Below are positions 6,702-56,594 of a stretch of 64,000 nucleotides of DNA, one piece after another. Position numbers and translations under genes: made by a program. Source of the DNA: Eublepharis macularius (lineage: Eukaryota > Chordata > Lepidosauria > Squamata > Eublepharidae). The stretch covers positions 18,548,001-18,612,000 of the forward strand of contig NC_072805.1 of assembly GCF_028583425.1 (NCBI RefSeq). The letters run 5' to 3'. The notes beneath the pieces were generated by a model that saw only the letters and a list, made by a program, of their open reading frames with translations, had not been told where the DNA came from and did no database searches. The stretch's first letter is position 1; each line of letters opens with the position of its first letter.

Positions 6702-6889
6702 TAAAGAGTCCAGTAGCACCTTTAAGACTAACCAACTTTATTGTAGCATAATCTTTCAAGATTACATCTGATGAAGACAGCTGTGCCTCTTGAAAGCTTA
6801 TGCTACAATAAAGTTGGCTAGTCTTAAAGGTGCTACTGGACTCTACTAGTTTGCTACTACAGACGAACACGGCTAACTCCTCTGGATCT
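6702..6889 (+). mobile_element. Penelope-like foldback, family A copy A1
   Basis: A short inverted arm (AGAGTCCAGTAGCACCTTTA) meets a longer plus arm that ends in the tail GCTACTACAGACGAACACGG and CTCCTCTGGATC. The flanks are a 14-bp duplication with one mismatch: TTGCTTCACTAGAG (6688-6701) and TTGCTTCACCAGAG (6890-6903). The signature CTGATGA...GAAAGC starts near 6770 on the plus strand. The long, variable-length duplication and the inverted arms argue against a cut-and-paste transposon. Penelope-like assignment is inferred. Confidence 0.8.
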
Positions 6890-7074
6890 TTGCTTCACCA
6901 GAGCCTCTCAAAATCTGCCCAATTCAAGCCATTTCCCAACCTTTCTAGCTCCGAGAATGGCATTTCTGGGCGTTAACTCTAAAAAAAGAGAAAGTTAATG
7001 CAGACCACCTTCGCCTGAGCCGCCACCTGTTACTTCCCCATGCCCTTGGGATGACCAAGAAGACAACTGAAATA

Positions 7075-8382
7075 AAATAACAGTGACTATTTTATTGAAC
7101 ATTATTTAATACCATATCAAAACACCTTGACTAATAGGGGAAGCTTCCCTTCCCAAGCTTTAAAGTTTTTGTTTTTTTTGTAATTTTTGTTAAGTTTTGT
7201 TTTTTAACTATATAAATACAGATACCTTTCCCTGCAGGATGATGGCTGCCGGCAGGGGTTTTCCCATGGCTGACATTCTCCACTTCGTGCTCAAACGTGG
7301 ATCGAGGCTGTGGGGGAGCGGTCGGGGTGTGGGTGTGTGCCACTTTACAATCCAGGTTCATTTTCCCCACAGGGCTGAGCGAGAGGTTCAGGCATCTTAG
7401 CAGGACACTTGTGAATGGCCACAGCCCTTCAGGATGTCCCCCACAACCGCCCTGGAGTGGGAAGTTCAAACCGAGACTCTCTAAGGAGAGAAGGGACAAA
7501 AACCAGGGGACTTTTGGCAATGAGGTGTGGCGTCCCCAGGAAAAGGCAAGGGGTGGGAAAAGAGATTCGGCTGCTCAGGTGCCGAATGGCTCCAGCGGGG
7601 AGGCCAAGAGGACGCAGTCTTGTAAACATCACCAGGAACACACATCAGTTGACACGAAATGGCTGTTTTTTGTAAACACTTGAAAGACAAACCTACGACG
7701 CCTTCAAAAAACAAGACAGAAAAATGCCCTTTCCTCCTCAGGATACGGGTGGGATTGGAGGCGTGGGTGGGGTAGGGGGTCTGTCTCTCTTCCTGGTTCC
7801 AAGGAAAAAAGAGAAGAAAAAAAAATTCACCGTTTCAGTGCAAAAGTGTGACCCGCGTGGAGTGGGAGGACCAAAGTTCCTTGTCAAAGCGGTGGCAATG
7901 CTCTCTCGTGCTCCGTTTGGCTAGCAGCCGGATCCGGACCAAACATCATGACGCTGCTGAAGAGGGGATGTCCGAAGGACCTCATGTGGTGGTCCTCATC
8001 CCCCGCCCCCTTAGAGACTGACTGCTGCCAAGGGACAGCTCTGCAAAGGCAGCGGCTTCTCTTTGGGGTCTTGTCTGCCCTTTTAAAGTCGAGAAGTAAC
8101 ACAAAAATCCCCTACGCGGCCGTCCCGCAGGGTTCCAGAGCTGGTTTGGAAAAGGTTTGGGAGGGGGAGGAAGGGACGAATGGGGGGTTACCTGTCAAGA
8201 GGAACAAATCACTGTATCAGCAGGGGCTCAAAGGGGTTCAGTGGACAAAAAAAAAAAAGTGAGTTTCCTTGGTCCTTTCCACACCGTGATGAGTGCTGCT
8301 GCAAATGCAGTCATTCGCAGCAGTAGCAGAGCAACCATGTGCTGGGTTCCCCTGCATTTTTCCAGCTCCCTCCTCACGTACA
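7075..8382 (-). other. ZNRF1: ZNRF1 3' UTR exon (predicted)
   Basis: Repeat-poor sequence upstream of a minus-strand AATAAA. On the minus strand a good acceptor (TTTGTCTTTACCTTCTAG) ends at 8383, so a 3' UTR exon 8382-7075 would pair with the donor found 30 nt after the ZNRF1 stop (GTGAGC from 9772). The acceptor choice is a prediction; a longer UTR or another acceptor is possible. No coding signal was recognised here: the open frames on both strands have no familiar content. Confidence 0.45.
7091..7096 (-). terminator. ZNRF1: Candidate ZNRF1 poly(A) signal
   Basis: TTTATT on the plus strand is AATAAA on the minus strand, in the context GTTCAATAAAATAG. A second AATAAA-like string (TTATTTTATTTCAG on the minus strand) lies about 20 bp further on. 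It is the first good signal after the ZNRF1 stop and lies before any LDHD sequence. Confidence 0.55.
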
Positions 8383-8621
8383 CTAGAAGGTAAAGACAAA
8401 TTGGCATAGGGGCTTGGAAAATGGCGTTCAAGTGGCTGATCCAGGCTTTCCTACCCACATGGCCGCCACTCTGACTTTGCTGCACTCATTCCAAAAAGAT
8501 CACAGTAAAGCCGAGGAAAATCCAGATGGTGAACAAAAGTACCATGAGGCTGTGTGGAAGCTGGGGGCGGGGGATGACCTGTTTTGTTCGTTTCCCATTT
8601 GCACCAAAGCTAGACCCAAAA

Positions 8622-8998
8622 GGTATTGTCGAAGGCTTTCACGGCCGGAGAACGATGGTTGTTGTGTATTTTCCGGGCTGTATTGCCGTGGTCTTGGCAT
8701 TGTGTAGTTCCTGACGTTTCGCCAGCAGCTGTGGCTGGCATCTTCAGAGGTGTAGCACCAAAAGACAGAGATCTCTCAGTGTCACAGTGTCATCCTCTTA
8801 CAGGATGACTCAGCCCAACCCCACCTTCCTGAGTAGATACAAATGACCTGCCAACTTCTTTTCCACACTGTGACACTGAGAGATCTCTGTCTTTTGGTGC
8901 TACACCTCTGAAGATGCCAGTCACAGCTGCTGGCGAAACGTCAGGAACTACAATGCCAAGACCACGGCAATACAGCCCGGAAAACCCACAACAACCAT
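8622..8998. mobile_element. Penelope-like inverted element, family C, hammerhead-like cores on both arms
   Basis: Two head-to-head arms of about 150 bp (8622-8790 and 8866-8998) flank a 75-bp spacer. Each arm ends at the outside with text such as CCACGGCAATACAGCCCGG and at the inside with GAGATCTCTGTCTTTTGGTG. Each carries CTGAAGATGCCAG...CTGGCGAAACGTC: on the plus strand at about 8908-8942 and on the minus strand at about 8750-8716. This fits CUGANGA, a hairpin, then GAAA and GUC, the hammerhead layout known from Penelope-like retroelements. Flanks are near-identical 12-mers, CTAGACCCAAAA (8610-8621) and CTAGACCAAAAA (8999-9010). Confidence 0.8.
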
Positions 8999-9467
8999 CT
9001 AGACCAAAAACTTGGGTGTGGAAATGATTCTTAGCGCTGTATCCACACACAGGTTTTCTTCCTTGGCTTCCAAACTGCCGTGTGGCTTTGGGGGTGGGGG
9101 GGGGGGGGGGGAAGTGTCCACTTACATCAACCACTAATCATCCACTTCCCAAGTTTTCCTTGTTCTCAGTATATTGAATTGACATGGTCTTTTCAGACAG
9201 AACGCAGTCCAAGCGCGTTAGCAAGCTGATGGGAAGGAGTGCGTTTTAGGAAGTCCCACCCACCTCAGATCCGTTTTCTTTCCCTCATCTCCCCTGCTGC
9301 TGCCCCCGTTTCCTCTGCAGAGAGGAGATTACAGCAAGAGGTCGTATAGAAGCTCTAAAAAAGAAGCGCTCCTGTCGGGAAGCCAATTTGGAGAAAAAGC
9401 TGTGTGGAAGCAGTCTTGGGGATTTCAGAATGCTGGGATGAGTTCTCCTGTGCCAAAGAGTGGCGTG

Positions 9468-9600
9468 TGGTGGTAGAGAGTGCCCTCGAGTCACAGCTGA
9501 CTTATGGCGACCCCTGGAGGGGTTTTCATGGCAAGAGATTAACAGAATGTGCCGGCTTTTTAAGCGTCTGCCAGTATGCATGGGTGGGCAGACAACTGGG
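9468..9600 (-). mobile_element. 5S-type SINE, 3' part
   Basis: The minus strand reads CTCTTGCCATGAAAACCCC, then GGTCGCCATAAGTCAGCTG and GACTCGAGGGCACTC. This is the tail module seen in the 5S-derived SINEs at 15477, 40150, 44724 and 55731. The 5S-like head is missing. Confidence 0.7.
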
Positions 9601-9772
9601 GTGGCAGTGCCAACATCAATCCCCAGAAAAAGGCCTAGTTTTTGCAACAAAGCTCAGCATTTGCCTGTTAGCTGTATAACCTGTGTCATCTTTTTTTTTA
9701 AATCCCCCTAAATGGGAGGAAACTAGCCGATGTTTCAAATGGGGGGGTTGTAGAGTCTTTTGAACGGCTCAC

Positions 9773-9802
9773 CTGGGGAGAGATCTGCAAGCGTTGCTAG
9801 GG
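9773..9802 (-). other. ZNRF1: ZNRF1 exon 4 untranslated end and splice donor
   Basis: Thirty nucleotides of 3' UTR follow the stop codon and end in CCCCAG|GTGAGC, a near-consensus donor. A stop codon within about 50 nt of the last junction normally escapes nonsense-mediated decay, so a 3' UTR intron here is plausible. Inference from sequence only. Confidence 0.55.
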
Positions 9803-9860
9803 TCAATCTGAAGGGTGCTCCGGGCAGGATCTGTTCACTTCAAACCAGGAATCTATACAG
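9803..9860 (-). CDS. ZNRF1: ZNRF1 coding exon 4, RING C-terminus and stop
   Basis: Acceptor CTTTGGCAG ends at 9861; the exon completes Ser223 and encodes CIDSWFEVNRSCPEHPSD before TGA (9805-9803). It supplies the last cysteines and histidine of the RING domain, including the CPEH pair. The ending agrees with mammalian ZNRF1 except for one residue (Ser for Ala, from memory). Confidence 0.97.
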
Positions 9861-10801
9861 CTGCCAAAGAAAAGGGGGGAGTCAGAAAGGGATCTATCAC
9901 CATGTGCCACAATGTCCAGGGCAGGCATCTTGCAAGGGAACCAAGGCGGAACACCCGCTCCAGCGCTTCTTTTCACATGGCAAAGGGCTTGCGGGATCTT
10001 CCCATTGTTGCCTGGTTGCCAGTACCATGCAGTGGCAAGAGGGCTTCCACATGGCAAGGGGAATGCAAAGAAACCTTGCCGAGTCCCCTGAGGCAGTCGT
10101 TTCCCTTCTGCCACTAGACGGCTTTATTTTTTAAAAAAATCAACAATGGATAGATCATTAAAACATCCTAGCTGTTACAATCTGTACAGAGATAACGGGA
10201 AAGGCGTATTTCTGCAATGAAAGGCGCCAGAACCTTACTTTTTTTAATGTGAAAGCTGGTAATTCAAAGAACGGGATAAACAGATTGTTATTACACCATT
10301 ATGGTATGGCAACTGCTGGTTATTATTTTAAAAAGACAAACCTCTCCAGTGGTGGGCAGGGGAAATGACTCCGATGTGGGCAGGACCTGGAAAATCCGGA
10401 CTTTCCAGTCCACGCGGGTATCACCCCAGCTTTGCTACAATCTTTCTCAAAACACTGCAGCAAAGCAGGCTTGGGAAAGGTTGCCAAAAGACGCCAAGCC
10501 CCACGAGATGCCAAGCACAAAAGCACCACAAAGGTATGGAGAACTGGGGGGGGAGGGGCTGCTTTCCCAACAGCATCCAAATGACGTGTAAGTGCCCCAT
10601 GATAACCAGGACAGGTAACAGCATCACTATCCCTTCCCTTTCAGGGAGAGGAAGAAACACCCCAAAGAATTTCGCAGCCCCTTGTGGAGGAAAGACGCGG
10701 GCTTTTGGGGAGCCTCGAGCAAGCCAAGTCGTTGCGGCCACACAAACAGGAATGCCCCAGAAACAGTGCCAAGTGTACGTGTAGAGGGTTTCATACTGTA
10801 C
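9861..10801 (-). other. ZNRF1: ZNRF1 intron 3
   Basis: A 0.94-kb intron with donor GTACAG and acceptor TTGGCAG. No repeat or other gene was recognised. Open frames on both strands across it are read-through of exon ends and are not supported as genes. Confidence 0.8.
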
Positions 10802-10907
10802 CTCTTGTGGTAAATGCACAGGCAGGGAAGCCGGGCTATCGTGTCCCCCTGCAGGAGCTCTTCCAGGCAGATCACACACTCGCCTGCATCCTTTGTTAGC
10901 ACATCGT
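10802..10907 (-). CDS. ZNRF1: ZNRF1 coding exon 3, first half of the RING finger
   Basis: A 106-bp exon between the acceptor CCTCCCTGCAG and the donor AG|GTACAG. It encodes residues 188-223: DDVLTKDAGE, then CVICLEELLQGDTIARLPCL and CIYHK. The CxxC pair Cys198/Cys201 and Cys216, Cys218 and His221 are the first zinc ligands of the RING. This domain recruits the E2 and transfers ubiquitin. Phase: starts by completing Asp188 (G + AC) and ends AG, which the next exon completes to Ser. Confidence 0.97.
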
Positions 10908-11166
10908 CTGCAGGGAGGCAAATAGAAAAGGCAGATGGGTGATGAGGAGCATCCGGCAAGCGACAACAACCACACACACACCCCTACACCACCTGAGCAG
11001 TGGTCTACCTTTGGGGGGCAGGGAGATGCAAAGCCCATTAACAGAACAGAGCTCCTTTTCGGGCCTGCGTAAGAACTAGCAATAAGGTCCCTTCCTTTCT
11101 CACCCAACTTTGGTCTTGCAGAAATCTCACATGCCCCTGGCTCTTATGTAGCATAAGGGAATAGAG

Positions 11167-11366
11167 TAAAGAGTCCAGTAGCACCTTTAAGACTAACCAA
11201 GTTTATTGCAGCATAAGCTTTCGAGAATCACAGATGCATCTGACAAAGAGAGCTGTGGTTCTCGAAAGCTTATGCTACAATAAAGTTGGTTAGTCTTAAA
11301 GGTGCTACCGGACTCTACTATTTTGCAACTACAGGCTAATATGGCTAACTCTTCTTGATCTATGAC
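11167..11366 (+). mobile_element. Penelope-like foldback, family A copy A2
   Basis: Inverted arms with GTCCAGTAGCACCTTTAAGA on the left and CTTAAAGGTGCTACCGGACT on the right. The tail ACTACAGGCTAATATGGCTA is at the right end. A perfect 13-bp duplication TAAGGGAATAGAG flanks it (11154-11166 and 11367-11379). It inserted in ZNRF1 intron 2 in the orientation opposite to the gene. Confidence 0.82.
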
Positions 11367-12124
11367 TAAGGGAATAGAGGCCGCTTTCATAACAAGAGCA
11401 GGATCGTAGCCTATTCCACTGTTTATTGAATGCATTACCTTGCTCTTACTGCATCCTTTCCTACTTTTGTAATTCCATTTTTTGTACTGTTCACGACGTA
11501 TTGTGTCTGATACTCTTTGTTTTTATTGTAATGCTTGTCATTCTAATCGTGCTGTTATCCTTTGTTGGATGTCTCGCCCAGCCTGATTGCATGGCCTTAT
11601 GTTGCCTTGTGTCTCAGCAATAAAGTAAATAAATATAAAACAAATACCTTTCGGACAGACTGGGAGATAAACCATGTCATAGCAACCATTTTGTAAACAA
11701 CCACCCACTGCCCCTCCACTCGTGAAGACTGAAGGGGCACAGTCCAAAAATGCCCTGGTTGTGATCGAGAACTTCCATTTCTCCCATTCCTATGCTGCGC
11801 TGGGTGGTTGGCCAAGGCCGCATATTGCAGGATCCTTTTGTTAACTTGATCAGCCTCATATGTGCATGATAGTGAACGAAGCGTGACTCACTTCTAAATC
11901 CAACAAGCTGCTTCATCACGCCTGCCAGCCCTCTCTGGCTTCTGCCAGACCAATCAAGAAAGCGTTGTGTGGCATTTGCCAACCACGGCATGCTTTAGGA
12001 TGGAAGGACACTGCCCCCATGGTGCAGATAGGAAAACCTTCCTTGCACAGACATCCCACATTAAAGGTGGCTGCACAGAGATGGGATCACAGTTGTAGTC
12101 AGTGGAGCGACACACTTTCTATCA

Positions 12125-12688
12125 GTAGGAAAGAGCAAGAGTCCAGTAGCACCTATAAGACTAACAAAATTTGTGGTAGGGTATGAGCTTTCCTGAGTCA
12201 CAGCTCACTTCTTCAGATACAGCTAGAATGAGTTCATGTGTTCTTTTATCTTGGAGAGTGGAGTGATTTCAGATGCCAAATGACAAACGGTGAATGACAA
12301 TAGCAGCTGTGATTGGATAGGGTGGGGTATGCAAAGGAATAACGAAGCTCAGGATAATGCATCCACCTGGATTGAATCGAGACCTAGGCTTCTTGTCTCA
12401 TTACCAATGCTGATTTCTCCACACCCGCCACCCCTCTGCATACCCCACCCTATCCAATTATGCCTGCTATTGTCATTCGCCTGCTATTGTCTTTTGGCAT
12501 CTGAAATCACTCCACTCTCCAAGATGTAAGGACAGATGGACTCACATTCTAGCTATATTTAAAGAAGTGAGCTGTGACTCATGAAAGCTCATACCCTACC
12601 ACAAATTTTGTAAGTCTCATAGGTGTTACTGGACTCCTGCTCTTTTCTACTCCAACAGATAAGACTAACACAGCCACCCATCCTGTCG
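12125..12688 (+). mobile_element. Penelope-like foldback, family B copy B1 (longest copy)
   Basis: A 564-bp near-palindrome. The arms match from the ends (GAGTCCAGTAGCACCTATAA / TCATAGGTGTTACTGGACTC) through TCTTGGAGAGTGGAGTG and on to GGATAGGGTGGGGTATGC, about 200 bp each side of a small loop near 12330-12430. The right arm carries the tail CAGATAAGACTAACACAGCC. Flanked by 10-bp CTTTCTATCA (12115-12124 and 12689-12698). It shows how far the family B terminal repeat extends when not truncated. Confidence 0.8.
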
Positions 12689-13109
12689 CTTTCTATCAAG
12701 CAAGCACGATTGAACAATTTAAAATGTGAGCTGAAGATTTAAAGCAACCTTAATTAATTGGGGAAACTACTCGCTTTACGGAAGACTCTTGCTTGTATTA
12801 AAAGAAATATCTTTTCTAGAGCAAAGGAAAATTTAGTTAAGGGTACTCAAACATGACACCGGGAACTGCTTAAATTAAAAATGAGTATGTTGAAAGTCAC
12901 AAGAAAAAATGGGGGGAATAACAAAGACCTATACTGCAGAATAATAACAGACTGAACAGCAGACACAGACAGTATGACTTCCAAACCTTCACAAATAAAA
13001 GCGGGCAGAGTACTGGACAGTTTCCCCTTTCGAAGGGGAAATGCAAGGTATAATTTTGAAGTTGTTTCCACCTAGCCAGCACAGTTTGGAAATCACTGGC
13101 TCGGGTTAC

Positions 13110-13690: not shown

Positions 13691-13934
13691 GTTTGTAAAA
13701 CTGTGAGTTTTCCTGTAACATTTGCCCCATCTGTACTAGTTCCAATTACATATTCCCCCATATGTTTACAATGCACAGCACCGGCAAGCTTTTATTTTAT
13801 AGAGTGCATCTCTTCCTCTTTGGGAAGGCCTGTTGTTGGACATAGAATAATGTCTATCTTCCTGCCCCCCTTCCCAACAGACCTAGAAGCACAGTTTGCT
13901 CTGCAGAAGTGGTTGACTAAGCAGTGGAAAAACA

Positions 13935-14050
13935 GCAGGAGTCCAGTAGCACCTATAAGACTAACAAAATCAGTGGTAGGGTATGAGCTTTCGTGAGCCA
14001 CAGCTCACTTCTTCAGATAAAAAAGCACACACACACACACACAGACAGAC
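13935..14050 (-). mobile_element. Penelope-like family B half copy B2 joined to an AC microsatellite
   Basis: On the minus strand it reads CTGAAGAAGTGAGCTGTGGC, then TCACGAAAGCTCATACCC and on to GGTGCTACTGGACTCC. It keeps the complete hammerhead-like layout (CUGAAGA, a GUGAG/CUCAC hairpin, GAAAGC). The second arm is absent. The copy is followed directly by a run of AC repeats (about 14023-14050) with a few AGAC units. Confidence 0.75.
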
Positions 14051-15476: not shown

Positions 15477-15690
15477 CTGGTGGTGGTGGAGAGTGCCCTC
15501 AAGTCATAGCTGACTTATAGTGACCCCTGATGGGGTTTTCATGGCAAGAGACTAACAGAGGTGGTTTGCCATTGCCTGCCTCCGCAAGCCTGGTCTTTAT
15601 TGGAGGTTCAATTACTAACCAAGGCCAACCCTGCTTAGCTTCTGAGATCTGATGAGATCAGGCACACCCAAACTATCCAGGTCAGAGTAG
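15477..15690 (-). mobile_element. 5S-rRNA-derived SINE
   Basis: The minus strand carries GAAGCTAAGCAGGGTTGGCC preceded by GATCTCATCAGATCTCA. This matches the internal promoter region of 5S rRNA (GATCTCGTCTGATCTCGGAAGCTAAGCAGGGT from memory, two segments). It is followed by GAGGCAGGCAATGGCAAACC and the CTTGCCATGAAAACCCC tail. It is a SINE, not a 5S gene: the 5' and 3' ends of 5S are missing. Confidence 0.85.
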
Positions 15691-16092: not shown

Positions 16093-16188
16093 CATTGTAG
16101 GAGAGGCGGGGCTTGCTCAGACACATGATAAAGTGCATTTCCGTTTCATCGGAAGCCACGGATTTGGAGCAAATGGGACACTTGAAAC
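16093..16188 (-). CDS. ZNRF1: ZNRF1 coding exon 2, zinc-finger exon
   Basis: A 96-bp exon between acceptor TTCCTCTTCCAG and donor AATG|GTAAGT. It encodes FKCPICSKSVASDETEMHFI and MCLSKPRLSYN (residues 157-187). Cys159, Cys162, His174 and Cys178 form the ZNRF-type zinc finger just before the RING. The only difference I can name from mammalian ZNRF1 is DET for DEM. In-phase with exons 1 and 3. Confidence 0.97.
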
Positions 16189-42048: not shown

Positions 42049-42257
42049 GGACCAAGATGGGTAGCTGTGTTAGTCTGTCTGTAGCAGTACGAAAGAGCAA
42101 GAGTCCAGTAGCACCTGTAAGACTAACAAAATCTGTGGTAGGGTATGACCTTTCGTGAGTTTCACTACTTCTAGCTGTATCTGAAGAAGTGAGCTGTGAC
42201 TCACAAAAGCTTTGTTAGTCTTATAGGACTCTGTTAATTTACTGGACTCTTGCTCTT
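42049..42257. mobile_element. Penelope-like foldback, family B copy B3
   Basis: Left: ATGGGTAGCTGTGTTAGTCT tail in reverse, then AAGAGTCCAGTAGCACCTGT. Right: ATCTGAAGAAGTGAGCTGTG and TTGTTAGTCTTATAGGACTC. Flanked by 9-bp CACCCTTCT (42040-42048 and 42258-42266). Slightly rearranged near its right end. Confidence 0.78.
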
Positions 42258-45207: not shown

Positions 45208-45623
45208 GCTCAAGATAGGTAGCTGCAGGGCTTTTTTTCAGGGGAACGCAGCGGAACGGAGTTCCGGAACCTCTTGAAAATGGTCACATGGCTGGTGGCC
45301 CCGCCCCCTGATCTCCAGACAGAGGGGAGTTGAGATTGCCAGGAGAGCAGAGGGCAATCTAAACTCCTCTCTGTCTGGAGATCAGGGGGCGGGGCCACCA
45401 GCCATGTGACCATTTTTCTCCCAGGGCAACCCACTGAGTTCCACCACCTCTTTCCCCAGAAAAAAAGCCCTGGGTAGCTGTGTTAGTCTGTCTGTAGCAG
45501 CAGAAAAGAACAAGAGTCCACTAGCACCCATGAGATTAACAAAATTTGTGGTAGGGCATGCGCTTTCGTGGGTCACAGCTCACTTCTTATCTGAAGAACT
45601 GAAGAAATGTGAGGAATCTTATT
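45208..45623. mobile_element. Penelope-like family B copy B4, itself interrupted
   Basis: After removing the MITE at 45226-45472, the sequence reads CTCAAGATAGGTAGCTG then TGTTAGTCTGTCTGTAGCAG and CATGAGATTAACAAAATTTG, the family B tail and arm in reverse. Flanked by 12-bp TTGGAGGATGCA (45196-45207 and 45624-45635). Confidence 0.8.
45226..45472. mobile_element. hAT-like MITE, foldback type 'CAGGGCTTTTTT', copy 3
   Basis: A 247-bp element, ends CAGGGCTTTTTTTCAG and AAAAAAAGCCCTG, flanked by 8-bp GGTAGCTG (45218-45225 and 45473-45480). The target GGTAGCTG is itself part of the family B tail, so this insertion is the youngest of three. Confidence 0.92.
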
Positions 45624-46150: not shown

Positions 46151-46632
46151 AGCTTGCCTTCCCCCTGCTCCTCACTCAGGCTGGGGCTGCTGCCTTTGGC
46201 TACGTAGCGGTTTCAACCGCCCCCCAGTTCGTTTGAAAAGGCTTGTAAATTGTCTTACATTTCTGGGCCCCTTCGTTCTTTTTCCACAGGGGTCGTGCAT
46301 GGTTTTTTCGCTCCTCCCCTGTATGTTTCCAACAACCCTATGGGGCAGGCGGCTGAGTGGGTTGTTGTTGTTATTAATGATGACCATGATGTCATTTATA
46401 GTCTGCCTTTCTCACTGAGACTCAAGGCGGATTACGCAGTGTGAGATTAGTACAGTCGGTATCAAGGACGTTTCCATAAACAATACTATAGGGTAAATAA
46501 ATACAAGTTTACAAAGATAAAGGTAAAGGTAGCCCCCTGTGCAAGCACCGAGTCATTAAAGAAATGTTGAAACAGAGCACAAGCAATTCTAGGACTGACA
46601 TTAGACAACATGAAGCACAGGTAGCACATAGG

Positions 46633-46753
46633 TCTAGAGGAGTTAGCTGTGTTAGTCTGTAGTAGCAAAATAGTAGAGTCCAGTAGCACCTTTAAGACTA
46701 ACCAACTTTACTGTATCATAAGCTTTCAAGAACCACAGCTCTCCTCATCAGAT
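46633..46753 (-). mobile_element. Penelope-like family A copy A3, single arm
   Basis: Reads in reverse from AGAGGAGTTAGCTGTGTTAG through AGAGTCCAGTAGCACCTTTA to CTCCTCATCAGAT. Only the long arm is present. Flanked by 9-bp GCACATAGG (46624-46632 and 46754-46762). The single-arm form with a target duplication looks like a 5'-truncated insertion. Confidence 0.78.
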
Positions 46754-47052
46754 GCACATAGGAGCACATATTTAAATGTTTATTCTGTTTTTAGCCCTCC
46801 TTCCCTGCAAGCAGGCTCAGGACTGGTGATAACAATGATAAAACACAAAGGTATAAAGGATGAATGCATATAAAATCAAGAATCAGTCAATATAATTGTT
46901 TAAAAAATAATTAAAAAATCAGTAAACATACAATATAAAATAGAAGTAACAGTATTGCTCCAGATTATGGTATTTAAATACAGATCAGATAAGGCACTCG
47001 GAGCATTGTGGGCTGGGCTAAGAGATATTGTGAGGGAGGAGCTTGTTGCAAA

Positions 47053-47560
47053 GTGGGGATTCTCTGTTTTATGCTCACTACAACCTTGTGAGGGGAGTGT
47101 GAGTGTGAGGGAGTGGCTGGCTCACGGCAGAGCAGGGATCCTCCTTTTCTCCATTTTATCCTTGAAACAACAGTAGTCATATGAAGTAGCCGGGGCTGAG
47201 AGGGAATGGCTCGTCCCTCTCACGGCAGTGAGGATTCTCTATTTCTCCTTTTTGTGATAGCAACTACCCTGTGAGGTGGGAGTAAATGTCTCATGGCAGA
47301 GTTGGAATTCTTCATTCTTTGATTTTATCCTTGAAACAACAACAGTCTTGTGAGGTAGGCATGGCTGAGAGGGAATGGCTCATCCCTCTCACAGAAGTGA
47401 GGATTCTCTATTTCTCCTTTTTGTGATAGCAACTACCCTGTGAGGTGGGAGTAAATGTCTCATGGCAGAGTTGGGATTCTTCATTCTTTGATTTTATCCT
47501 TGAAACAACAACAGTCTTGTGAGGTAGGCATGGCTGAGAGGGAATGGCTGGCCCAAAGAT
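47053..47560 (+). repeat. Three-unit 169-bp tandem repeat derived from SINE sequence
   Basis: Units start at about 47053, 47228 and 47397. The word GATTTTATCCTTGAAACAAC at 47321 recurs at 47490, and GAGGATTCTCTATTTCTCC at 47230 recurs at 47399: exactly 169 bp apart. Unit 1 is more diverged (about 175 bp). The content (GGTAGGCATGGCTGAGAGGG, CATTTTATCCTTG) looks like the body of a tRNA SINE on the minus strand. Confidence 0.85.
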
Positions 47561-48158
47561 CACCCACTGGGTTTCATGGCTCAGTGGGGATGTGGGGATA
47601 TGAGGATGGGCCTCTTTTGTCCCTGTTTTTTCTCAATATATGTATCTGTTATGAACATAAGAATCGTCTTTCTTGGGTACCATCACCAAATGACTCTTTA
47701 TTGATAATGATTCAGGGGTACCAACTGATCAGAATGAAATAAAACCTCAACCCTGGCTTGCATCCTCGGCTTTTAATGCCTTCTTGATATGCAGGAGTTG
47801 GTAGATTCTGGAGGATCAGCCAGATTTGTCCAATGTAGCAAAAGCTACAAATAATCTTTTTCTTCTTTAAATAAGTTATTGTGACTTTCATAGGTCAGAA
47901 CCCATTTTGACAAGTGTGTGATGCATTAACCTCAGGAGTAGATGACTGCCCTTTGGTAAAACATTTCCCCTCCTTGCCTCTGTGTTCATGTTGTCTGTAT
48001 GCTTGCCTACCCACTTACGTTGCCACACACATCTGACAAAATAGGCTCTGCCTGTTTGTGGATCAGAGCTTGTTTCATCAGACACACAAAAAATTACTTG
48101 CAGTTGACATATGTAGGTCCAGAGGTTGGATAATATAAACAATTATTTTTACCCCAAA

Positions 48159-48609
48159 GAGGGGCTGTGGCTCACTGGTAGAGCATCTACTTTGCATGCA
48201 AAAGGTCTCAAGTTCAGTCCCCATCATCTCCAATTAAAAGGATCAGATAGGACGTGATGAGAAACACTTCTACGTGAAACTGCTAGTCTGAGTAGACAGT
48301 AGTGACTGTGATGAACCCAAAATAGAAAAGAGTCCAGTAGCACCTTTAAGACTAACCAACTTTACTGTAGTATAAGCTTTCGAGAATCACAGATCTCTTC
48401 TTCAGATGCATGGAGGGACCCTCCATGCATCTGATGAAGAGAACTGTGATTCTCGAAAGCGTATGCTACAGTAAAGTTGGTTAGTCTTAAAGGTGCTACT
48501 GGACTCTTCTATTTTTGCTACTACAGACTAACACGACTAACTCCTCTGGATCTATATGGTGATGAACCAAGGGTCTGATTCAGTATAAGGCAGCTTTATG
48601 TGTTTGTGA
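48159..48609 (+). mobile_element. Sauria-type tRNA SINE split by a Penelope-like insertion
   Basis: The head is at 48159-48317 (GAGGGGCTGTGGCTCACTGG, AAAGGTCTCAAGTTCAGTCC, GTCTGAGTAGACAGTAGTGA). The tail resumes at 48559-48609 (GGGTCTGATTCAGTATAAGG). The gap is filled by copy A4. Confidence 0.87.
48318..48558 (+). mobile_element. Penelope-like foldback, family A copy A4
   Basis: A 241-bp palindromic element. The centre contains GATGCATGGAGGGACCCTCC. The plus arm carries CTGATGAAGAGAACTGTGAT then TCTCGAAAGC. The tail CTACAGACTAACACGACTAA ends in CTGGATCTATATG. Flanked by perfect 10-bp GTGATGAACC (48308-48317 and 48559-48568) duplicated from the host SINE. This is one of the best-preserved copies. 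Confidence 0.88.
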
Positions 48610-50139
48610 GACTACATTTTATTTGTGCTCAAGTGTGCATTATGTATTTTTGAAAATAATACTTGATGGCAGTGTTGACATGAGCTCTAATCTGTGAAAA
48701 TTCAAGCCACAATACTTTGTGAGATGCCACAGGAACTGGCAGGCAAAGCTTTCTCTTTCTCTCACAGTACGAAGGTAGGCATTATGCACCTGCTAATTAA
48801 CTTACAGATGAAGACATAGGATAGGGATTGTGGTTAATGAGCTGGTAACCTGGCAGTGCAAATCTAAATGCAGTTGCACACTTCTAAGCCTTTTGAAGCC
48901 AATTAGCTTAGAAAGGTGCAACTGTGATTAGGATCACAGTGTTAAACCGGTTCTGAATCCTGTTTCCAGCACTGGCCAAAAGGGATGCTTCTGCAGGATG
49001 TAAAGGCCGCTCACTGCCCTGCTCTGTTCATTATCCAAAGCTTCTGATATTTAGGGCTATCCTTCCTCTGTATGTGGATTCTCACATGCTTCTGTACTAC
49101 TGGCAGGATACACGTGTAGCCCCCCAATGAGGTTGATAATATCCCTTGGTGCTGTTTTGTATTAGAAAAACAGCGCAGGTGTAGAGACTGAAGCCTCTTC
49201 TCCCCCATCATCTCAAACTGAATTGGAGGCCTCGTGTTCTTGGGAAATGACCTTGCACCTGATATTTAACTGTCTCAGTCAAAGTCAGGTTGCAGGAACC
49301 CAGACCTTACACTTTGCAAATTCTAACATGTAGTTTGTCCCTTAGCAAATCTTTATTGCTGGAGTGTATGGAATTTATTCCTAATGCTGGCAAGTACCAC
49401 TATGTTCTTACCTTTTGCTACGGGAGTGGGGAATGTTGTTATTGGTAGTTATTTTTATTAATAAATGTATATATGTCTAATAATTTGCAGAGAGCTTTAA
49501 TTATTTATCACCACTCCGCCCTTGTGTAACCAGCAGTTGTTATTCCAGTCTCACTGATGAGGAACTGATCGCATCATGAGGTCTGTTACTGAAATGTAAC
49601 ATTCTAGTTCTCTGTTGAGAGCTGAAATTTGTATAATAAGCACAAATATCTGCAGGACATGTATTGGAAAGTTCATGTTGAGCTTGTCAACGTAGTCTGT
49701 TCAGTTAAGGTTGTTGTGGCAAGTATGGCCAGCTTTTCCTTCCCTCTTCTGTAATTTTTCCTATAAAACGTGGATTATGATTTCTTCTTCAGAGCATCTG
49801 AATACGTGGGCTCTGATTCATGAAAGGTCATGCTGGAACAAATACTGTTAACCTTTTAAGCTGCCACTGGGCTTCTAGTTTCCCTAAATGTTGGTTCATG
49901 ATGGTAGAAAGAGCCATAGTGCCTGTGCAACAGTTACTCTTTTTTTAAAAAAACAATTGTTTGGGTGCTAAAACATGGCAGCCACAAAAAGGAGCAGGTG
50001 AGATTATTCCAGTTTGCCCGCTCATCTCTTTCCTTAATAAATAGGTGCTGGCTTGCCTGTCCCTGCCATCTGCTTCACACACACCCCAACCCAGTACCAT
50101 AATGGTACCACCCTTCCTCCAGTCAAGTCAGGCCAGAAT

Positions 50140-50462
50140 ACTTGGTTCAGTTCTCCATTTACTCTCACAACAGCCCTGGGAGGCAGGTCAGGCCAAGAAA
50201 GAATGGCTGATCCAAGGTTACCTGGTGGTCGTAATGGCTGAGTGAGGATTTGAGTCTAGATTTCACATAAGAACATCTATGAAGCTTCCTTGTACTGAAT
50301 CAGACCCTTGGTCCCTCAAGATCAATGCTATGTGATAGCAGCATTCCAAGATCTCAGGTGGAGGTTTTTGACATCATTTGCTGCCTGATTCTTCTCTGGA
50401 GATTAAATCCGGGACCTTCTGCATGCTAAGCAGATGCTGTATCACTGAGGCACAGCCTCTCC
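50140..50462 (-). mobile_element. tRNA SINE fragment followed by a Sauria-type SINE
   Basis: 50140-50262 is a decayed body of a Squam1-like SINE (minus strand). 50268-50462 on the minus strand runs GAGAGGCTGTGCCTCAGTGA, AGAAGGTCCCGGATTTAATC and GGGTCTGATTCAGTACAAGG: a nearly complete Sauria-type copy. Confidence 0.75.
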
Positions 50463-50632
50463 TAGAAAAGAAATTAAATATTTTCCCAGTCTTAGTCCAG
50501 TGCTCTTAACCACTCAGTTCCACTGGTGCTCTCCCATTGGAATGGGCATCAGAGAAAAGGTATCTTATTTTTTCACATTCCATTTCTGGCCCAGGGTGCT
50601 CTAGAACGTGACAGGTGTATTAATGCACCTAA

Positions 50633-50838
50633 GGGCCAAGCTACAAGTGACGAATGACACTTGAATAGCAAGTGAACAGACTCACGTGTATTCCTCCCTG
50701 TTCACTTGTGCTCCACTTGCACTCCATTCGGTCATGTGATCGAGTGGAGTGCAAGTGGAGGGCAAGTGAACAGGGAGGAATACACGTGAGTCTGTTCACT
50801 TGCCATTCAAGTGCCATTCATCACTTGTAGCTTGGCCC
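50633..50838. mobile_element. Harbinger-like MITE, TIR GGGCCAAGCTACAAGTGACG
   Basis: A 206-bp almost perfect palindrome. The left end GGGCCAAGCTACAAGTGACG and the right end (reverse complement) GGGCCAAGCTACAAGTGATG match. Arms continue through AGTGAACAGACTCACGTGTA and ATTCCTCCCTGTTCACTTG to a centre near CCATTCGGTCATGTGATCG. Flanked by TAA (50630-50632, 50839-50841), a TWA-type 3-bp duplication as in PIF/Harbinger. Little divergence between arms suggests a young insertion. Confidence 0.9.
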
Positions 50839-51716
50839 TAAGAGCTCAGGTGGTGGATGGTATTTTCCACCCAGCAACCTTGAGTTTATCATGCAGGGGA
50901 GGGGATCACTGCATTCTTATGAGTCAGGTCACACACGTGGCCAACTATGGACTTAAATATCCCACGTCTCTTAGATGTGGGAGTGGGCAAAGAAGGTATT
51001 GGATCCTTGAAATAGAAACTGTCTGGACTTCCCCTTTCGTATTGCTGTGCTGAGCTGAGACTATGTGAATGCCCCTTTATTCCAAAATAAGACTGCTGTG
51101 GGTGTGACCGCATTGCAAAGCTGCCATGACCATTCCATAGTATATATTCGACATTCCGTTTCTGGAGTCTCTGAGCAGCAGGCAGCACCGCACAAACAAA
51201 ATCTCACAGTTTTCAAGTATATCAGTCCTGCCCCGCTCTTGGCCATTGAGGAGACGGTCACAATACTTAGTGTAAAACAAGTGGTGAGGGAGAGGGAAAC
51301 ACAAGTCATTAATCTTCATGGGAAAGTATGTGCAGATAACTATCCACTAATGAATTTTTAACTAGGATCCTGGTTGCCTGTTATTGAACAGCGGCCATGT
51401 GTTCCATGAAGTCAAGAATGCTCTTCTCTAGGAGGCAGGCTGCCTTTTCTAATTGCATCACAATGTCATCTGATAGTAAAGGTGAAAGCCCGAGCTTCTG
51501 GTTTCTCAGCGCTGCAGGAGTCGGGGGATTCACTCATGCCATGACGGCAGAGCCGCATTGGCATAGACCATCGCAAACATCTAATATGCCGTAGATCTTG
51601 TTCTGCTCTCATGCAGGGTAGTGTTAAAGTGAGGAGGTAGCAAGACTTGCTCATCTTAACGTTGTTGGAGGGGGATGCTTTTCTCAGGCTGTGGTTGAAC
51701 ATCCTTATAAGGATTG

Positions 51717-51935
51717 TGAGCCGACACGGTATCGTAGTTAGAATGTCAGACGAAGATCGGAGAGACCCAGGTTTGAACCCCTGCCGTGGAGGCTTGCTGG
51801 GTGACCTGGGGTCAGTCACGCAGTCTCTGTCCATGCTACTTCACAGGGTTATTGCGAGGATAAAATGGAAGAGAGGAGCACAGTGTAAGCTGCTTTGGGT
51901 CCACATTGGGGGGGGGAAAGTGGGTTATAAAAGAA
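51717..51935 (+). mobile_element. tRNA-derived SINE (Squam1-like)
   Basis: AGCCGACACGGTATCGTAGT, CCCAGGTTTGAACCCCTGCC, GTGACCTGGGGTCAGTCACG, GCGAGGATAAAATGGAAGAG, ending GTGGGTTATAAAAGAAGTGA. Full length. Confidence 0.82.
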
Positions 51936-52209
51936 GTGAATGAACTGAGCCCCCTCCAGAGATCACAGGGGTATGCTGAGGGAGGTTTGTCTTATTTGGT
52001 CTGCACAGAATTTCCCTTTCGAGGATAAAGCGGAGAATGTTTACCATATGGGGTTATTTCTCTTTGTACAGAGGAGCACGGAGTAGAACCAAGAATAGAT
52101 AAAAGAGCATATGCAAACCAAACCTTTTCTAGTCATTCTGCTCTTGTGATTAAAAAGACTAGGAAACCATTTCCGCTTGAGAAGAGTACGGATATTAACC
52201 GATGATTTG

Positions 52210-52490
52210 AATCGGAAAATTTTCCAGTTTAAATAAATTCAGTATTTACATAACGTTAGCCAAATTTAAATGATGTTAGCCAGAGAAGGCAAACACCACC
52301 GTGCACAAGCCAGGACCATGTACAAGCACTGGGGTTTGTCCCCGCGTTCTATCCCCCATGCGGCCAATCCCACGCGGTGGGTTTGCAGCACAGCAGCCCT
52401 GACAATTATAGATAAGCAGGCTATATTTACATACGTGAGATGGGAAATTTTCCGCTGAAAAATATAGCATTGAAAATTTTTCCGGCCCAC
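52210..52490. repeat. Unnamed AT-rich foldback repeat, copy 2
   Basis: Second copy of the 33915 repeat. The left has CGGAAAATTTTCCAG and TAACGTTAGCC / TGATGTTAGCC; the right has GGGAAATTTTCCGC and GAAAATTTTTCCGG. The shared middle block is described at 33915. Inverted GGAAAATTTTCC boxes at both ends suggest a miniature transposon. Confidence 0.6.
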
Positions 52491-52957
52491 ATCGCGAGAT
52501 GTATCCAAGAAACACATTTTCTTTGTGTTGAATAATCTAATTGTGGCGCGGAGGGGGGGACGATGGCGGAGCAAGTAATTCATCTCTAGCAAACAGCGCT
52601 TGTGCTGAAAGAAGAAGAAAAAAACAGAAACTGATCTCATTGAAGCTGGAAGCCATGAAGACCTGAAAGGATGCTCCCAACCAAACTACAATCGCACCCT
52701 GCCCCGCAGTGTGCTTAGGATCCTTACGGGGTTGAATAACTGCAGTGCTCCTCATGATTAGATAAAACACAAGTCCAGTGGCCCCTTAAAGGCAAAGGAA
52801 AGTTATGCTAGCCTAAGCTTTTGTGGGTGGGTCTGAAGTGAACTCTGACTCAAGAAAGGCTATGCTGGAATATTCATTTTTCAGGTGCTACTGGGCTCTT
52901 GTTTGATTTTGCCACAGCAGACAAACGTGGCTATGCCTCTGGAGGTACTGTGATTAG

Positions 52958-53161
52958 ATGCAGAGGAGTTAGCCGTGTTAGTCTGTAGTAGCAAAATCAA
53001 AGAGTCCAGTAGCACCTTTAAGACTAACCAACTTTATTGTAGCATAAGCTTTCGAGAATCACCGTTCTCTTTGTCAGATGCATCTGACGAAGAGAACTGT
53101 GATTCTTGAAAGCTTATACTACAATAAAGTTGGTTAGTCTTAAAGGTGCTACTGGACTCTT
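52958..53161 (-). mobile_element. Penelope-like foldback, family A copy A5
   Basis: Tail at the left (GAGGAGTTAGCCGTGTTAGT), then AGAGTCCAGTAGCACCTTTA, centre GTCAGATGCATCTGAC, right arm CTTAAAGGTGCTACTGGACT. Flanked by 9-bp TGTGATTAG (52949-52957 and 53162-53170). Confidence 0.85.
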
Positions 53162-53419
53162 TGTGATTAGGTGGACATTTTTGAACTGCTGCAAACAGGA
53201 ATGGAAATGTTCAGAGTTTGCCTTCAACCTGCATCTCAGGTTTTTTTTTCATTTTAGAAAAATGATTGGCTGACACGGTTCATCTTGACTTCAAATGCAA
53301 GTGTGCCTAGGGCCTTCCTTGTTGCAGGCTGTCAAGGCTCTGCCCTGAAATATGCAAAGTAATCACAGTCAATCGGAGAGCTATTCTTAAAACCCTGGAA
53401 TAAAGTTGAGCCTGGCCAA

Positions 53420-53910
53420 ATGACATCAAATGCTGTGCTTGGGCCAAGGAGACCGAGGTTCATAGTCCCTGCTCAGCCATGAAACTCTGGGCCAGTTGCA
53501 TACACTCAACCTAATCTCGCAGGGTTGTTATGATCCTAAAACGGGCTCACTTTTGCCCCATCCTCCATTATACAATTCTGATTTCTTTGAAGGAAAGACA
53601 GTATTTAAATGTGATATGTACATCATTGTCTTTCTCATGTTCCCCAGGTAGGATGTTAGGCATATAGGAGCATGCTTGATTTCTAATGGCTGGGTAACGG
53701 AATGGATCGAGCCCCCACCCCAGTGTAGTCCTTTCCAAGGATACTGCCCATGGCATGCGGGATTTTCCAGGTTCAGTCCCCAGCAGCAAATGTTAAGACA
53801 TACTTTTTTTTGCCTGAAAACCAAGGGCAGTCAGCGTAGACAACACTAAGCTAGGTGGACCAGAGGTCTGGCTTGGAAGAGGACAGTTTTGTATGTCCGT
53901 ATGTTCCTGA
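53420..53910 (+). mobile_element. Two decayed tRNA-derived SINEs
   Basis: 53420-53540 is Squam1-like: GAGACCGAGGTTCATAGTCC and CGCAGGGTTGTTATGATCCT. 53700-53910 is Sauria-like: CAGGTTCAGTCCCCAGC and GGTGGACCAGAGGTCTGGCT. Both are diverged. Confidence 0.55.
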
Positions 53911-54297
53911 CTGCACCTGTTTACTACTTTCCCATGGGGAAAATTAAGGAGTTCACTTGGGGACACTGTTGCAGGGGAGACAATACCCACCCTTTGCCCA
54001 GGGCCAGTTCAAGGTGTTTTGCGACCCCAAGCAAAGTAGTTACCATATATCCTTCCCCAGCCCAGTCACAGTCATTCCTGATCAGTAGCCCATTGTTCAT
54101 GAAAAATAAACCACTGTCACCCCAGATATAATTTTCTCTCTTTTATGAACATTAATTTATGGAGATTAATGAACTGCAAGGTGCTTAGATTATCTTTTGC
54201 AGGAGTCCCCAATGTGCCTGAGCCTTTAGCGCCATTGGAATTTTGACACAGGGTGATGGGCGCAACTGCAAAATGTCAGGATTATGCATAACTAAGA

Positions 54298-54514
54298 TCC
54301 AGAGGAGTTAGCCGTGTTAGTCTGTAGTAGCAAAATAGACAAGAGTCCAGTAGCCCCTTTAAGACTAACCAACTTTACTGTAGCATAAGCTTTCGAGAAT
54401 CACAGTTCTCTTCATCAGATGCATCATGCATCTGACGAAGAGAACTGTGATTCTCGAAAGCTTATGCTACAGTAAAGTTGGTTAGTCTTAAAGGGGCTAC
54501 TGGACTCGTCTATT
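54298..54514 (-). mobile_element. Penelope-like foldback, family A copy A6
   Basis: A 217-bp element. Tail at the left (AGGAGTTAGCCGTGTTAGTC), palindromic centre GATGCATCATGCATCTGACG, arms identical apart from few bases. The plus arm carries CTGACGAAGAGAACTGTGAT then TCTCGAAAGC. Flanked by perfect 13-bp TGCATAACTAAGA (54285-54297 and 54515-54527). High arm identity suggests recent insertion. Confidence 0.9.
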
Positions 54515-55730
54515 TGCATAACTAAGAGTAACTCTTCAACATTTCAAGCAGAAGCTCTCTTTAATGGGATGCCTTTTAAAATGAACATCGTGTCTTAAAA
54601 TAGTTTCTTGCCTATACACAGCTTACCTGCATTCACACCTTGAAGATCCTTGTGCTGTGATGGCAGCTGCGGCCAGATCAACATTTTTAAATCTCTGCAC
54701 AGCTAATCAGAAACCATACTGGGTAAAAAGCTGCATCTGGCCTCATCCCCCTTTTTAAAAACTCATAGAGGGTGTCATAGCACCCATGAGCACCATGTTG
54801 GGTTTGTCGGAAGACTCGCACATGAAATGCCTAACCAGGTTCCTAAAATGCCTCATTACCTTTTACTTTGTTATTATTCAGCTTGAGCAGATTCTCTGAT
54901 GGTATATCAATGTTCTAAATGAATTACTCTTAGCCCTGTTTACATCGCTCCCAGAGCTTGGCACAGTTTGTCTTGTTCAGATGGTATCATCAAACAAATT
55001 AGGGGCTGTAGGACACACACAAAGAATGTGTTTCTGAGAAAACTTATAAATATCATGAATTGGTCACACTGGCCTTCTGCCTCAGTGTGTGCTCTAGGAA
55101 TGGCTAGTATGACCAAGAGGTAGTGGAGGTCTTTCCCAACTCTAGAATACTTCTCATGGTATCATTACAAAAGAGTGCAGAGGTGTTTCCCCCCCCCCAG
55201 TGGGTAGGTGAATTCTGCCCTGTGCCCAGTGATGGCAGCCTCCCCACAATTCTCTCTGCCAGGCTAAACTTCAGGAGGGGGAAGTGGGTGCCTTCTCCCA
55301 CCCACCACCCACTCCCTTTGAAGACAGCCTCCACAGTGAAGCCTGTCAAAATGGTAGGAAAGTCAATAGTAACAAGCTCTGACAACTTAGGTAGCAATGC
55401 TTCAGAGACGGTTCTGTGGGCTATAATGAATACAAGTCAAGCAGTTTGCTGTTGCACTCGAAAGGTCAATGCCATTTCTAGGCTGGATTAACAGGGTTAT
55501 GGCTTCCAGTATTTGGAAAATAACAATCCTGCTCTGTTTAGCAGCAATAAGCTCTCCTCTGGGGAGCTGTAGTTCGGCTTTGCAAGCGCATTCATCAACT
55601 TTGTTAGTCTACAAAAAAAAGTCATTGCTGTTCCAATCCAGATATCTAATATTAAAGGACTGAAAAATACGCATTTTTAAAGCTTCCTTTCTGGCTGCCT
55701 GAAGGGAATTCTCTCTCACCACAGGTGTTG

Positions 55731-55910
55731 CAGCTTGACCTTGTCAGATTTCAGAAGCTAAGCAGGGTTGGCCTTGGTTGGTAATTGGATGGGAGACCTC
55801 CAACGAAGACCAGGGTTGCAGAGGCAGGCAGTGGCAAGCCACCTCTGTTAGGCTCTTGCCATGAAAACCCCAACAGGGGTCACCATAAGTCAACTATGAT
55901 TTGAGGGCAG
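55731..55910 (+). mobile_element. 5S-rRNA-derived SINE
   Basis: AGAAGCTAAGCAGGGTTGGC, GGTAATTGGATGGGAGACCT (5S-like), then GCAGAGGCAGGCAGTGGCAA, CTCTTGCCATGAAAACCCCA and GGGTCACCATAAGTCAACTA. Nearly full length. The TTGGATGGGAGACC block is the clearest 5S match here. Confidence 0.87.
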
Positions 55911-56114
55911 GATTTCATTTTTCACAGGTGACCAGTGAGCTCTTTACAAAGCTTGCTATCTTTTTTGGGGAAAGATGGTAGATGAACTGGTGGCAACTCA
56001 CAGGAAAGTTGTGAGGCCGGCAGAGGGCCTAGGTCTCAAGTGATATGTTAAACAGATGTGGAGCAGGCTTGTGTGATTTTCACTTTGGGGCCATATTCCA
56101 CCCCTTCCTCTAGG

Positions 56115-56270
56115 TGCTGTGTGTGTGGTGTTGTCCTTCATTTTATCCCCATTACAGCCCCTTGAGGTAGATTAGGCTGTGCGATCGTGCCTGACTCAAG
56201 GGCACCCAGTGAACTTTGTGGCCGAACGAGGATTTAAAGCTAGGTCTCTGATCTAACATTCGGTTTTCTG
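56115..56270 (-). mobile_element. tRNA-derived SINE fragment
   Basis: The minus strand has AGCTTTAAATCCTCGTTCGG, GGTGCCCTTGAGTCAGGCAC and GTAATGGGGATAAAATGAAG. Head and tail are worn. Confidence 0.6.
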
Positions 56271-56387
56271 TCCTGTACCGGTTCTCCCAGAAGCAGCTAT
56301 GCAAGTAAGTCCCCAGAAGCTAGTAACTCAGTACCACTATGCGTACTGGTGTTAATAATTTGTGTGGCCTAAAAGACAAAAGGAACC

Positions 56388-56594
56388 TATAGAAAAGAGC
56401 AAGAGTCCAGTAGCACCTATAAGATTAACAAAATTTGTGGTAGGGGTATGAGCTTTCGTGAGCCACAGCTCACTTCTTCAGATACCTGTCGGTATCTCTG
56501 ACTCATGAAAGCTCATACCCCTACCACAAATTTTGTTAGTGCTACTGGTCTCTTGCTCTTTTCTACTGCTACAGACAGACTAACACAGCTACCC
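56388..56594 (+). mobile_element. Penelope-like foldback, family B copy B5
   Basis: AAGAGTCCAGTAGCACCTAT at the left, a truncated centre near ATACCTGTCGGTATCTC, and the tail CTACTGCTACAGACAGACTA at the right. Flanks AAAAGGAACC (56378-56387) and AAAAAGAACC (56595-56604), one mismatch. Confidence 0.8.

Follow-up and report, generated by a model that had tools for sequence, protein, structure and literature searches.

Palindromic Penelope-like element ends with a putative minimal hammerhead motif in a 64-kb stretch of the Eublepharis macularius genome

Repeat families of the window and their hammerhead-type core

The window described here is a 64,000-nt stretch of the Eublepharis macularius genome (RefSeq assembly GCF_028583425.1, contig NC_072805.1, positions 18,548,001 to 18,612,000 of the forward strand). 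It contains copies of three repeat families, A, B and C, which, judging from their sequence and from what lies next to their relatives elsewhere in the genome, are 5'-truncated terminal regions (pseudo-long terminal repeat, pLTR, plus tail) of three families of Penelope-like elements (PLEs). A sequence-only reading of the window had described the three families, their inverted pairing and a hammerhead-like signature within them. The families and the pairing were confirmed where that reading had placed them, with two corrections: the repeat at 46633 is one arm only and not a palindrome, and the B copy named at 45208 is actually at 45471-45598, the segment 45226-45476 being a different repeat that is also present at 1102 and 38105. 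The copies and their motifs are as follows (TSD, target-site duplication; arrow, predicted cut).

6705-6888: family A palindromic PLE end, short left and long right end, TSD about 14 bp
6763-6804, + strand: A-type hammerhead motif, mutated (56 bits, covariance model)
11170-11360: family A palindrome, TSD about 14 bp
11235-11276, + strand: A-type motif with one core mismatch (G8), from the architecture scan and covariance model
46612-46756, - strand: family A single arm with long tail; core-intact motif at 46715-46756
48329-48552: family A palindrome, TSD about 12 bp; motifs at 48369-48410 (-) and 48426-48467 (+)
52955-53159: family A palindrome; motifs at 53041-53082 (-) and 53079-53120 (+)
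54295-54507: family A palindrome, the best preserved, TSD about 15 bp
54427-54468, + strand: intact A motif, GCAU-CUGACGA-A-GAGAA/UUCUC-GAA-AGCU-U↓AUGC
54382-54423, - strand: intact A motif (CUGAUGA)
12180-12221, - strand: B motif on the left arm of a pair made up of 12124-12230 and 12545-12651
12554-12595, + strand: B motif with decayed core, right arm of the same pair
13980-14021, - strand: B motif, core intact
42176-42216, + strand: B motif, degraded
45555-45598, - strand: B motif, degraded, in the copy first placed at 45208
56445-56486, - strand: intact B motif, GGUAU-CUGAAGA-A-GUGAGC/GCUCAC-GAA-AGCU-C↓AUACC
8622-8997: palindromic PLE end of family C with a long left and a short right end (approximate limits)
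8708-8752, - strand: C motif, intact, overlapping an ATG (CTGAAG-ATG)
8903-8947, + strand: C motif, CCU-CUGAAGA-U-GCCAGU..GCUGGC-GAA-ACGU-C↓AGG
49793-49834, + strand: motif of a fourth family, D, stem I AGCAU/AUGCU, G8 lost

The bare CTGANGA core is only slightly over-represented in the window (56 occurrences against 42 expected, with 3 of 100 shuffles reaching 56). The strict architecture, whose definition was framed after copies had been seen (CTGANGA, stem II of at least 4 bp, GAAANNTH and stem I of at least 3 bp), is present at seven window sites and in none of 60 dinucleotide shuffles, which upholds the hammerhead-like signature; when one core mismatch is allowed there are 12 sites, compared with a mean of 0.07 in 15 shuffles. 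A covariance model (R1) was built from 28 hand-chosen rows of families A, A* (described below), B, D and E, some of them window copies and none from C; it reports 16 window sites at E < 1e-6, including the family D motif.

In the usual hammerhead numbering and with reference to the canonical core, the better fold of these motifs is predicted to consist of stem I, CUGANGA, one extra base, stem II, GAA and a self-complementary tetramer that would serve as stem III (AGCU in A and B, ACGU in C). The earlier reading had instead drawn stem III as AGC/GCU around a four-base loop (AGC-UUAU-GCU), a hairpin that is paired in 64.3 % of cells in the 28 rows and in 64.4 % after shuffling, and that fails in B; no hairpin-type stem III was thus found, and what remains is the self-complementary tetramer, as in the PLE variant of the ribozyme. 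With stem III limited to this contiguous tetramer the next base becomes H17 and stem I, which had been thought weak, becomes 3-5 bp long and covaries. The stem I pairs are GCAU/AUGC in A, GGCAU/AUGCU in A*, GUAU/AUAC in B and CCU/AGG in C, and stem II takes the forms GAGAA/UUCUC, GUGAGC/GCUCAC or GCCAGC/GCUGGC. The predicted cleavage site is thereby shifted, to lie after CUU in A, CUC in B and GUC in C. The extra base after A9, ahead of stem II, had been noticed already and is present in all 30 rows of an alignment hand-picked from 48 rows (a chance match at window 33894 and others were dropped). The variability of the N position is likewise seen among the first 100 A/B sites listed, with C in 68, T in 22, A in nine (eight of them family B) and G in one. 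We note that the family A core (e.g. window 54432-54467) has two CpGs on catalytic positions (N7-G8 and 11.1-G12).

Stems I and II appear to covary. In the 28 rows they are paired in 85.4 % of cells, 30 cells carry changes in both partners (14.0 on average after shuffling) and the covariation score is 0.316 (0.196 shuffled); for all three measures none of 500 shuffles was as high and all six slid versions were lower. Stem I alone, with C included, is 77.3 % paired, a value that none of 500 shuffles reached. Among the first 100 sites listed, the fifth pair of stem II is A-U 52 times, G-U 30 times and G-C 18 times; A-C, which the genomic motif pattern permitted, does not occur. Of the two stems in which the sequence-only reading proposed to look for compensatory changes, stem II covaries (as does stem I), and its stem III does not. 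Several points weigh against a hammerhead assignment. Pairs with changes on both sides number three, a count reached by 259 of 500 shuffles, which means that a small number of pairs, and chiefly the contrasts between one family and another, carry the covariation, and the aligned rows are related to each other. The extra base after A9 is, to our knowledge, absent from the canonical hammerhead, and the Rfam hammerhead models gave no match, an outcome that the earlier reading had listed among its refutations. We infer that Rfam lacks this stem-III-poor variant, because the covariation, the genome context and the published PLE ribozyme concur.

Linkage to Penelope-like elements, abundance and arrays

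The genome searched comprises 2.24 Gb. A Pfam GIY-YIG search in which 150 of 3,593 candidates were scored yielded 78 matches, and 30 of these PLE endonuclease loci were fetched with about 1.5 kb on each side. One of the 30 (L036) has an A-like motif behind its endonuclease and three others give weak model matches (E 0.015-0.28), a scarcity that counts against the overall reading; L022 has a C palindrome about 1 kb upstream of the endonuclease match and L017 a loose pattern match only. On these 30 loci, of which L036 alone has the motif behind its endonuclease, other PLE families were rejected as carriers. With the 125-aa endonuclease piece of L036 as query, 150 places were scored among 23,550 candidates, and apart from L036 itself all (149) are 99 % identical to it. 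These A* places have open frames of up to 936 aa and include many head-to-head pairs and some tandem ones. The motif is present in all 14 of the 3' flanks fetched (hand-chosen from the 150 places listed), 339-348 nt in, and one copy (L078) carries a stem I change. In an A* tandem junction (L083) each repeat has the motif, at a distance of 3,143 nt, and the intervening sequence holds a 934-aa stop-to-stop frame that matches RVT_1 (E 1.7e-11) and, exactly at the cut-off (22.6 bits), GIY-YIG. Downstream of the motif A* has a short end (..GGACTCTT) and, approximately 40 nt further on, a long end (..CTCTGGATCT) that adjoins an in-frame ATG. Family A is thus an older sister of A*.

Of 30 B loci, 12 are preceded on the same strand, at 125-186 nt, by the C-terminus of an endonuclease, these pieces being 43-75 % identical where matched. 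For C, an endonuclease-like frame (YIGTT..R..EH) is found upstream in six of the seven loci viewed (L035, L085 and L090-L093), that of L090 holding a stop, and among 14 C loci there is one short reverse transcriptase (RT) match that could be assigned to C (L090, 45 aa, E 2e-4). Statistically the link of C to an endonuclease frame is weak: T5orf172 scores E 0.016, under the cut-off, and does so on a typed composite. No open frame starts within the motif in A or B; in C an ATG begins at A9, and by sequence count the predicted cut falls 26 nt past the start codon. The earlier assignment of A and B to the PLE class is thus borne out by endonuclease linkage, for A by way of A*, and C would belong to the same class of PLE ends with a hammerhead-type motif.

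It could be argued that the repeats are unrelated palindromic DNA elements, similar to miniature inverted-repeat transposable elements, that resemble hammerheads by chance; they are, after all, inverted repeats inside TSDs and have no Rfam match. We regard this as extremely improbable. The linkage to PLE endonuclease frames upstream refutes it for A* and B, the two fixed 3' ends are those expected from PLE RT starts, and none of the 60 shuffles reproduced the architecture.

Exact matches to 35-letter patterns, of which only one includes an entire strand of stem I, number 14,695 for A/B, 6,129 for A* and 30,517 for C (51,341 in total), and reversed-pattern controls gave no matches genome-wide. 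Among 299 sites listed, neighbours within 5 kb are in the -/+ order, with 5' ends facing, 59 times, in the +/- order once and in tandem nine times. On C1, inverted A* pairs with a spacing of about 2,987 nt recur near 4.66, 5.01 and 7.05 Mb together with a C palindrome at fixed spacing, as if part of a larger duplicated segment. In four loci (L036, L069, L078 and L083) the A* repeat also has a decayed older A-type palindrome just behind the stop of its open reading frame.

A-type motifs also form tandem arrays, in which the 52-nt unit consists of one hammerhead motif plus about 10 nt (L152-L162, L050 and L117, on C1-C3 and C19). There are 2,224 exact unit junctions genome-wide. The 100 listed are on C1-C3 in 53 clusters; none is more than 32 Mb from a chromosome end and 91 of the 100 are no more than 20 Mb away, counts that are given here without a control distribution. 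Three arrays have about 13, 18 and 28 units, and the three that come with flanks (L152, L154 and L155) sit inside family A copies. The core is intact in 12 of 32 strict units; many others are disabled by the changes CTGACAA and CAAAAG, as CpG decay would give.

Palindromes, outer ends and cleavage

That each palindrome has one long and one short outer end was an idea taken from the window copies and tested next on further loci. The sample comprised 38 -/+ pairs within 400 nt from the listed sites and 16 very short C palindromes chosen by their junction, selection being for the exact core pattern in both arms or for the C junction. Outer ends were classed by local alignment with limits of 105-108 set after the lengths had been viewed (short, at most 98; long, at least 115). 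Exactly one long and one short end were found in 52 of the 54 palindromes; none was long/long and the script called two short/short. In one of these (L117) the right arm extends up to the limit of the fetched sequence, and in the other (L146) the left arm contains an internal repetition and continues past that limit, so that all 52 resolvable palindromes, from A*, A, B and C, have one end of each kind. Three of the loci (L125-L127) are copies of one segment, and the independent events therefore number about 50. In a preceding round of ten rows that included window copies, the script returned three as short/short (window 53001, that same element in L001, and also L003), and on reading the left flanks of all three contain the tail, which makes them long/short; the window palindrome at 52955-53159 thus has a long left end, missed by the script, and a short right end. 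TSDs of at least 9 bp, one mismatch allowed, are present in 45 of 54 own flank pairs, compared with 12 of 300 crossed pairs.

The two arms of a palindrome are also truncated alike. Their lengths 5' of the core correlate (Spearman 0.83) and are within 3 nt in 16 of 27 pairs against 6.4 expected by permutation; filler makes some of these lengths lower bounds, and L126 and L127 were omitted from this test as copies of L125. Over 76 nt the arms of one palindrome are identical or nearly so (0-5 differences in 28), the A* arms have the same N7 letter in 14 of 14 palindromes (C in nine, T in five), and the window palindrome at 54298 has a private GGGG variant in both arms. Against one shared RNA template stands the window C palindrome, whose arms disagree at a common T/C variant and are set apart by an indel of 2 nt.

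We take the one-long, one-short pattern as a hint that reverse transcription took place twice, once for each DNA strand and from a different start site each time. In the mechanism we propose, the PLE protein would make a staggered cut through both strands. Reverse transcription would then begin at each DNA end, probably with one RNA as the shared template, each end using a different one of the two known start sites, and the resulting two cDNA ends would be joined in the middle to give the palindrome. For PAc, the Poseidon PLE of Anolis carolinensis, cutting and extension of both strands from two start sites have been seen in vitro (PMC11167929), which fits two starts and one break in the palindromes; no apparent RT-start difference between strands is reported in vitro (PMC11167929), which fits either strand using either site. 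The palindromes of Adineta vaga Penelope elements have been explained differently, by self-priming on an antisense RNA template with hairpin copying (PMC3846280). Such a route would account for the head-to-head layout and palindromic junctions (PMC3846280) and for the near-identity of the arms, yet it should give equal outer ends, in conflict with all 52 resolvable palindromes, and PAc cuts and extends both strands (PMC11167929); we consider it improbable here. As for the insertion rule in full (one RNA, two starts and two strands, giving one long and one short end per palindrome, one TSD and matched 5' truncation), taken together with 52-nt hammerhead arrays spawned near chromosome ends, we believe it by a narrow balance. 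PLE mobilisation is poorly understood, and the 52 of 52 pattern turns two starts and two-strand cutting into a testable model. No earlier statement of the strict rule was found in the literature passages searched, nor did the exact repeat strings match in the papers searched. What is added here is the strict end rule, which together with the 52-nt arrays is the unusual part; the class of ribozyme, inverted pLTRs, TSDs and a one-sided tail have been described already.

Microhomology was rejected as a general rule for the central joins, since most of 29 palindromes overlap by zero or less, often with filler, as do 32 of 50 C junctions. The exception is ACGT: of 241 C junctions the first 50 listed include 12 that lie exactly there, against a random-join share of 5/81; a TSD of their own was found for 11 of 12 fetched ACGT junctions (L136-L147 without L146, which runs off).

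Whether the motif folds would depend on its context. In bare motifs of A, A* and B stems I and II are predicted with a mean pair probability above 0.9, and in a 250-nt single-arm context of A* the values are 0.858 and 0.839. In palindromic transcripts (window A 54298, either strand, and C 8622) both values drop to 0.000, as one arm pairs with the other, a concealment that could explain how many seemingly intact ribozymes might cut nothing at all. Other predictions speak against a ready ribozyme fold: in 500 nt the A* values fall to 0.623 and 0.767, one A right arm in a 145-nt stretch gives 0.000 for stem I with 0.933 for stem II, and in C the best fold is shifted in register to a CUGA/UCAG stem that occupies the core, with a stem I probability of 0.018 in the bare motif and 0.010 in a 200-nt single arm. 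The competing stem is a possible reason for the reported need of a PLE protein, one that A and B should not share.

Junction positions bear on whether cleavage sets the ends. In the same first 50 listed C junctions both arms are exactly at the predicted cut in only two. Single arms end there in 24 of 100 cases, and at neighbouring positions in 16, 12 and 15; with repeated rows counted once the figures are 17 of 66 against 12, 12 and 14, a mild excess that lacks a proper null. By reading, none of 16 A* places (9 in control) has its junction at the predicted cut. That hammerhead-cleaved RNA is the usual template was thus not borne out. For PAc no reads at the cut are reported, and insertion proceeds without ribozyme activity (PMC11167929). 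These low counts and the PAc results indicate that cleavage does not set most 5' ends, with a minor part possible.

We also have to weigh the view that the motif is a hammerhead relic, no longer cleaving and kept for an overlapping promoter, start codon or RT-binding function. It draws on the extra base after A9, the competing fold in C, the scarcity of junctions with both arms at the cleavage site, and the finding that PAc cleaves in vitro only with protein while its ribozyme mutants still insert (PMC11167929). It sits less well with the retention of core and stems across several families whose remaining sequence differs, with the motif kept in both repeats of the tandem A* copy, with the cut position being mildly favoured as an arm end (24/100), and with the cleavage of PAc in the presence of protein, partly rescued by a C3G/G8C double change (PMC11167929). 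On this evidence a relic seems rather unlikely, and we lean towards A* and B cleaving under some condition. In tandem PLE transcripts the motif would then cleave after CUU, CUC or GUC, probably as a double hammerhead in which self-paired AGCU or ACGU forms stem III, or with the help of the PLE protein; as the arms of short head-to-head copies are antisense to one another, folding is not to be expected there. The overall reading of A, B and C as truncated PLE ends with a minimal, stem-III-poor hammerhead, with cleavage and the two-start route to palindromes as its inferred parts, we hold with considerable confidence.

Other window features and comparison with known systems

A few further features of the window are listed for completeness. 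The segments 57100-57223 and 48158-48281 are tRNA-like (46 bits at 57103-57174; the second copy is 76 % identical) and are possibly a tRNA-derived short interspersed element (SINE). Those at 15577-15689 (- strand) and 55710-55825 (+ strand) are 5S rRNA-like, just under the Rfam cut-off and beside a shared repeat, and represent a possible 5S-derived SINE. A palindrome of another family is present at 50629-50842, with 106-nt arms that are 92 % complementary and 2 nt apart, and 47109-47554 holds about 2.3 copies of a 169-bp tandem repeat.

Small hammerhead variants of PLEs were reportedly described by Cervera & de la Pena in 2014 and by Lunse et al. in 2017. Reviews state that PLEs hold minimal type I hammerheads without helix III, in tandem, which may cleave as dimers (PMC7761336, PMC6155905), and A, B and C therefore add members to a known class and are no new kind. 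From accounts of the small variants (PMC7761336, PMC10085705, PMC6466107), the likeness extends to the minimal type I core with stem III nearly absent, the location in PLE repeats, the dispersal by thousands of copies and the proposed dimer action. The motifs described here may differ in the extra base after A9, present in every aligned row, and do differ in that many copies lie in palindromes that hide the motif, with 52-nt arrays in addition. Hammerhead satellites and retrozymes (the newt satellite, and animal retrozymes of about 170-400 nt; PMC6155905, PMC7229834) are likewise tandem with one hammerhead per unit, whereas here the unit is 52 nt, the three flanked arrays are inside A copies and the listed sites lie towards chromosome ends.

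The Penelope elements of Adineta vaga share with our families the head-to-head inverted pLTRs, the TSDs and a tail, of 31 bp, on one pLTR (PMC3846280); that tail is called optional, whereas a long and a short end occur together in every resolvable palindrome here. Closest to C is PAc, in which, by position arithmetic, the start codon is similarly placed at stem II, with C3 and G8 before it and the cut 26 nt after it (PMC11167929). PAc also has the two RT starts, GIY-YIG and RT (PMC11167929), and unlike it A and B have no open frame beginning in the motif.

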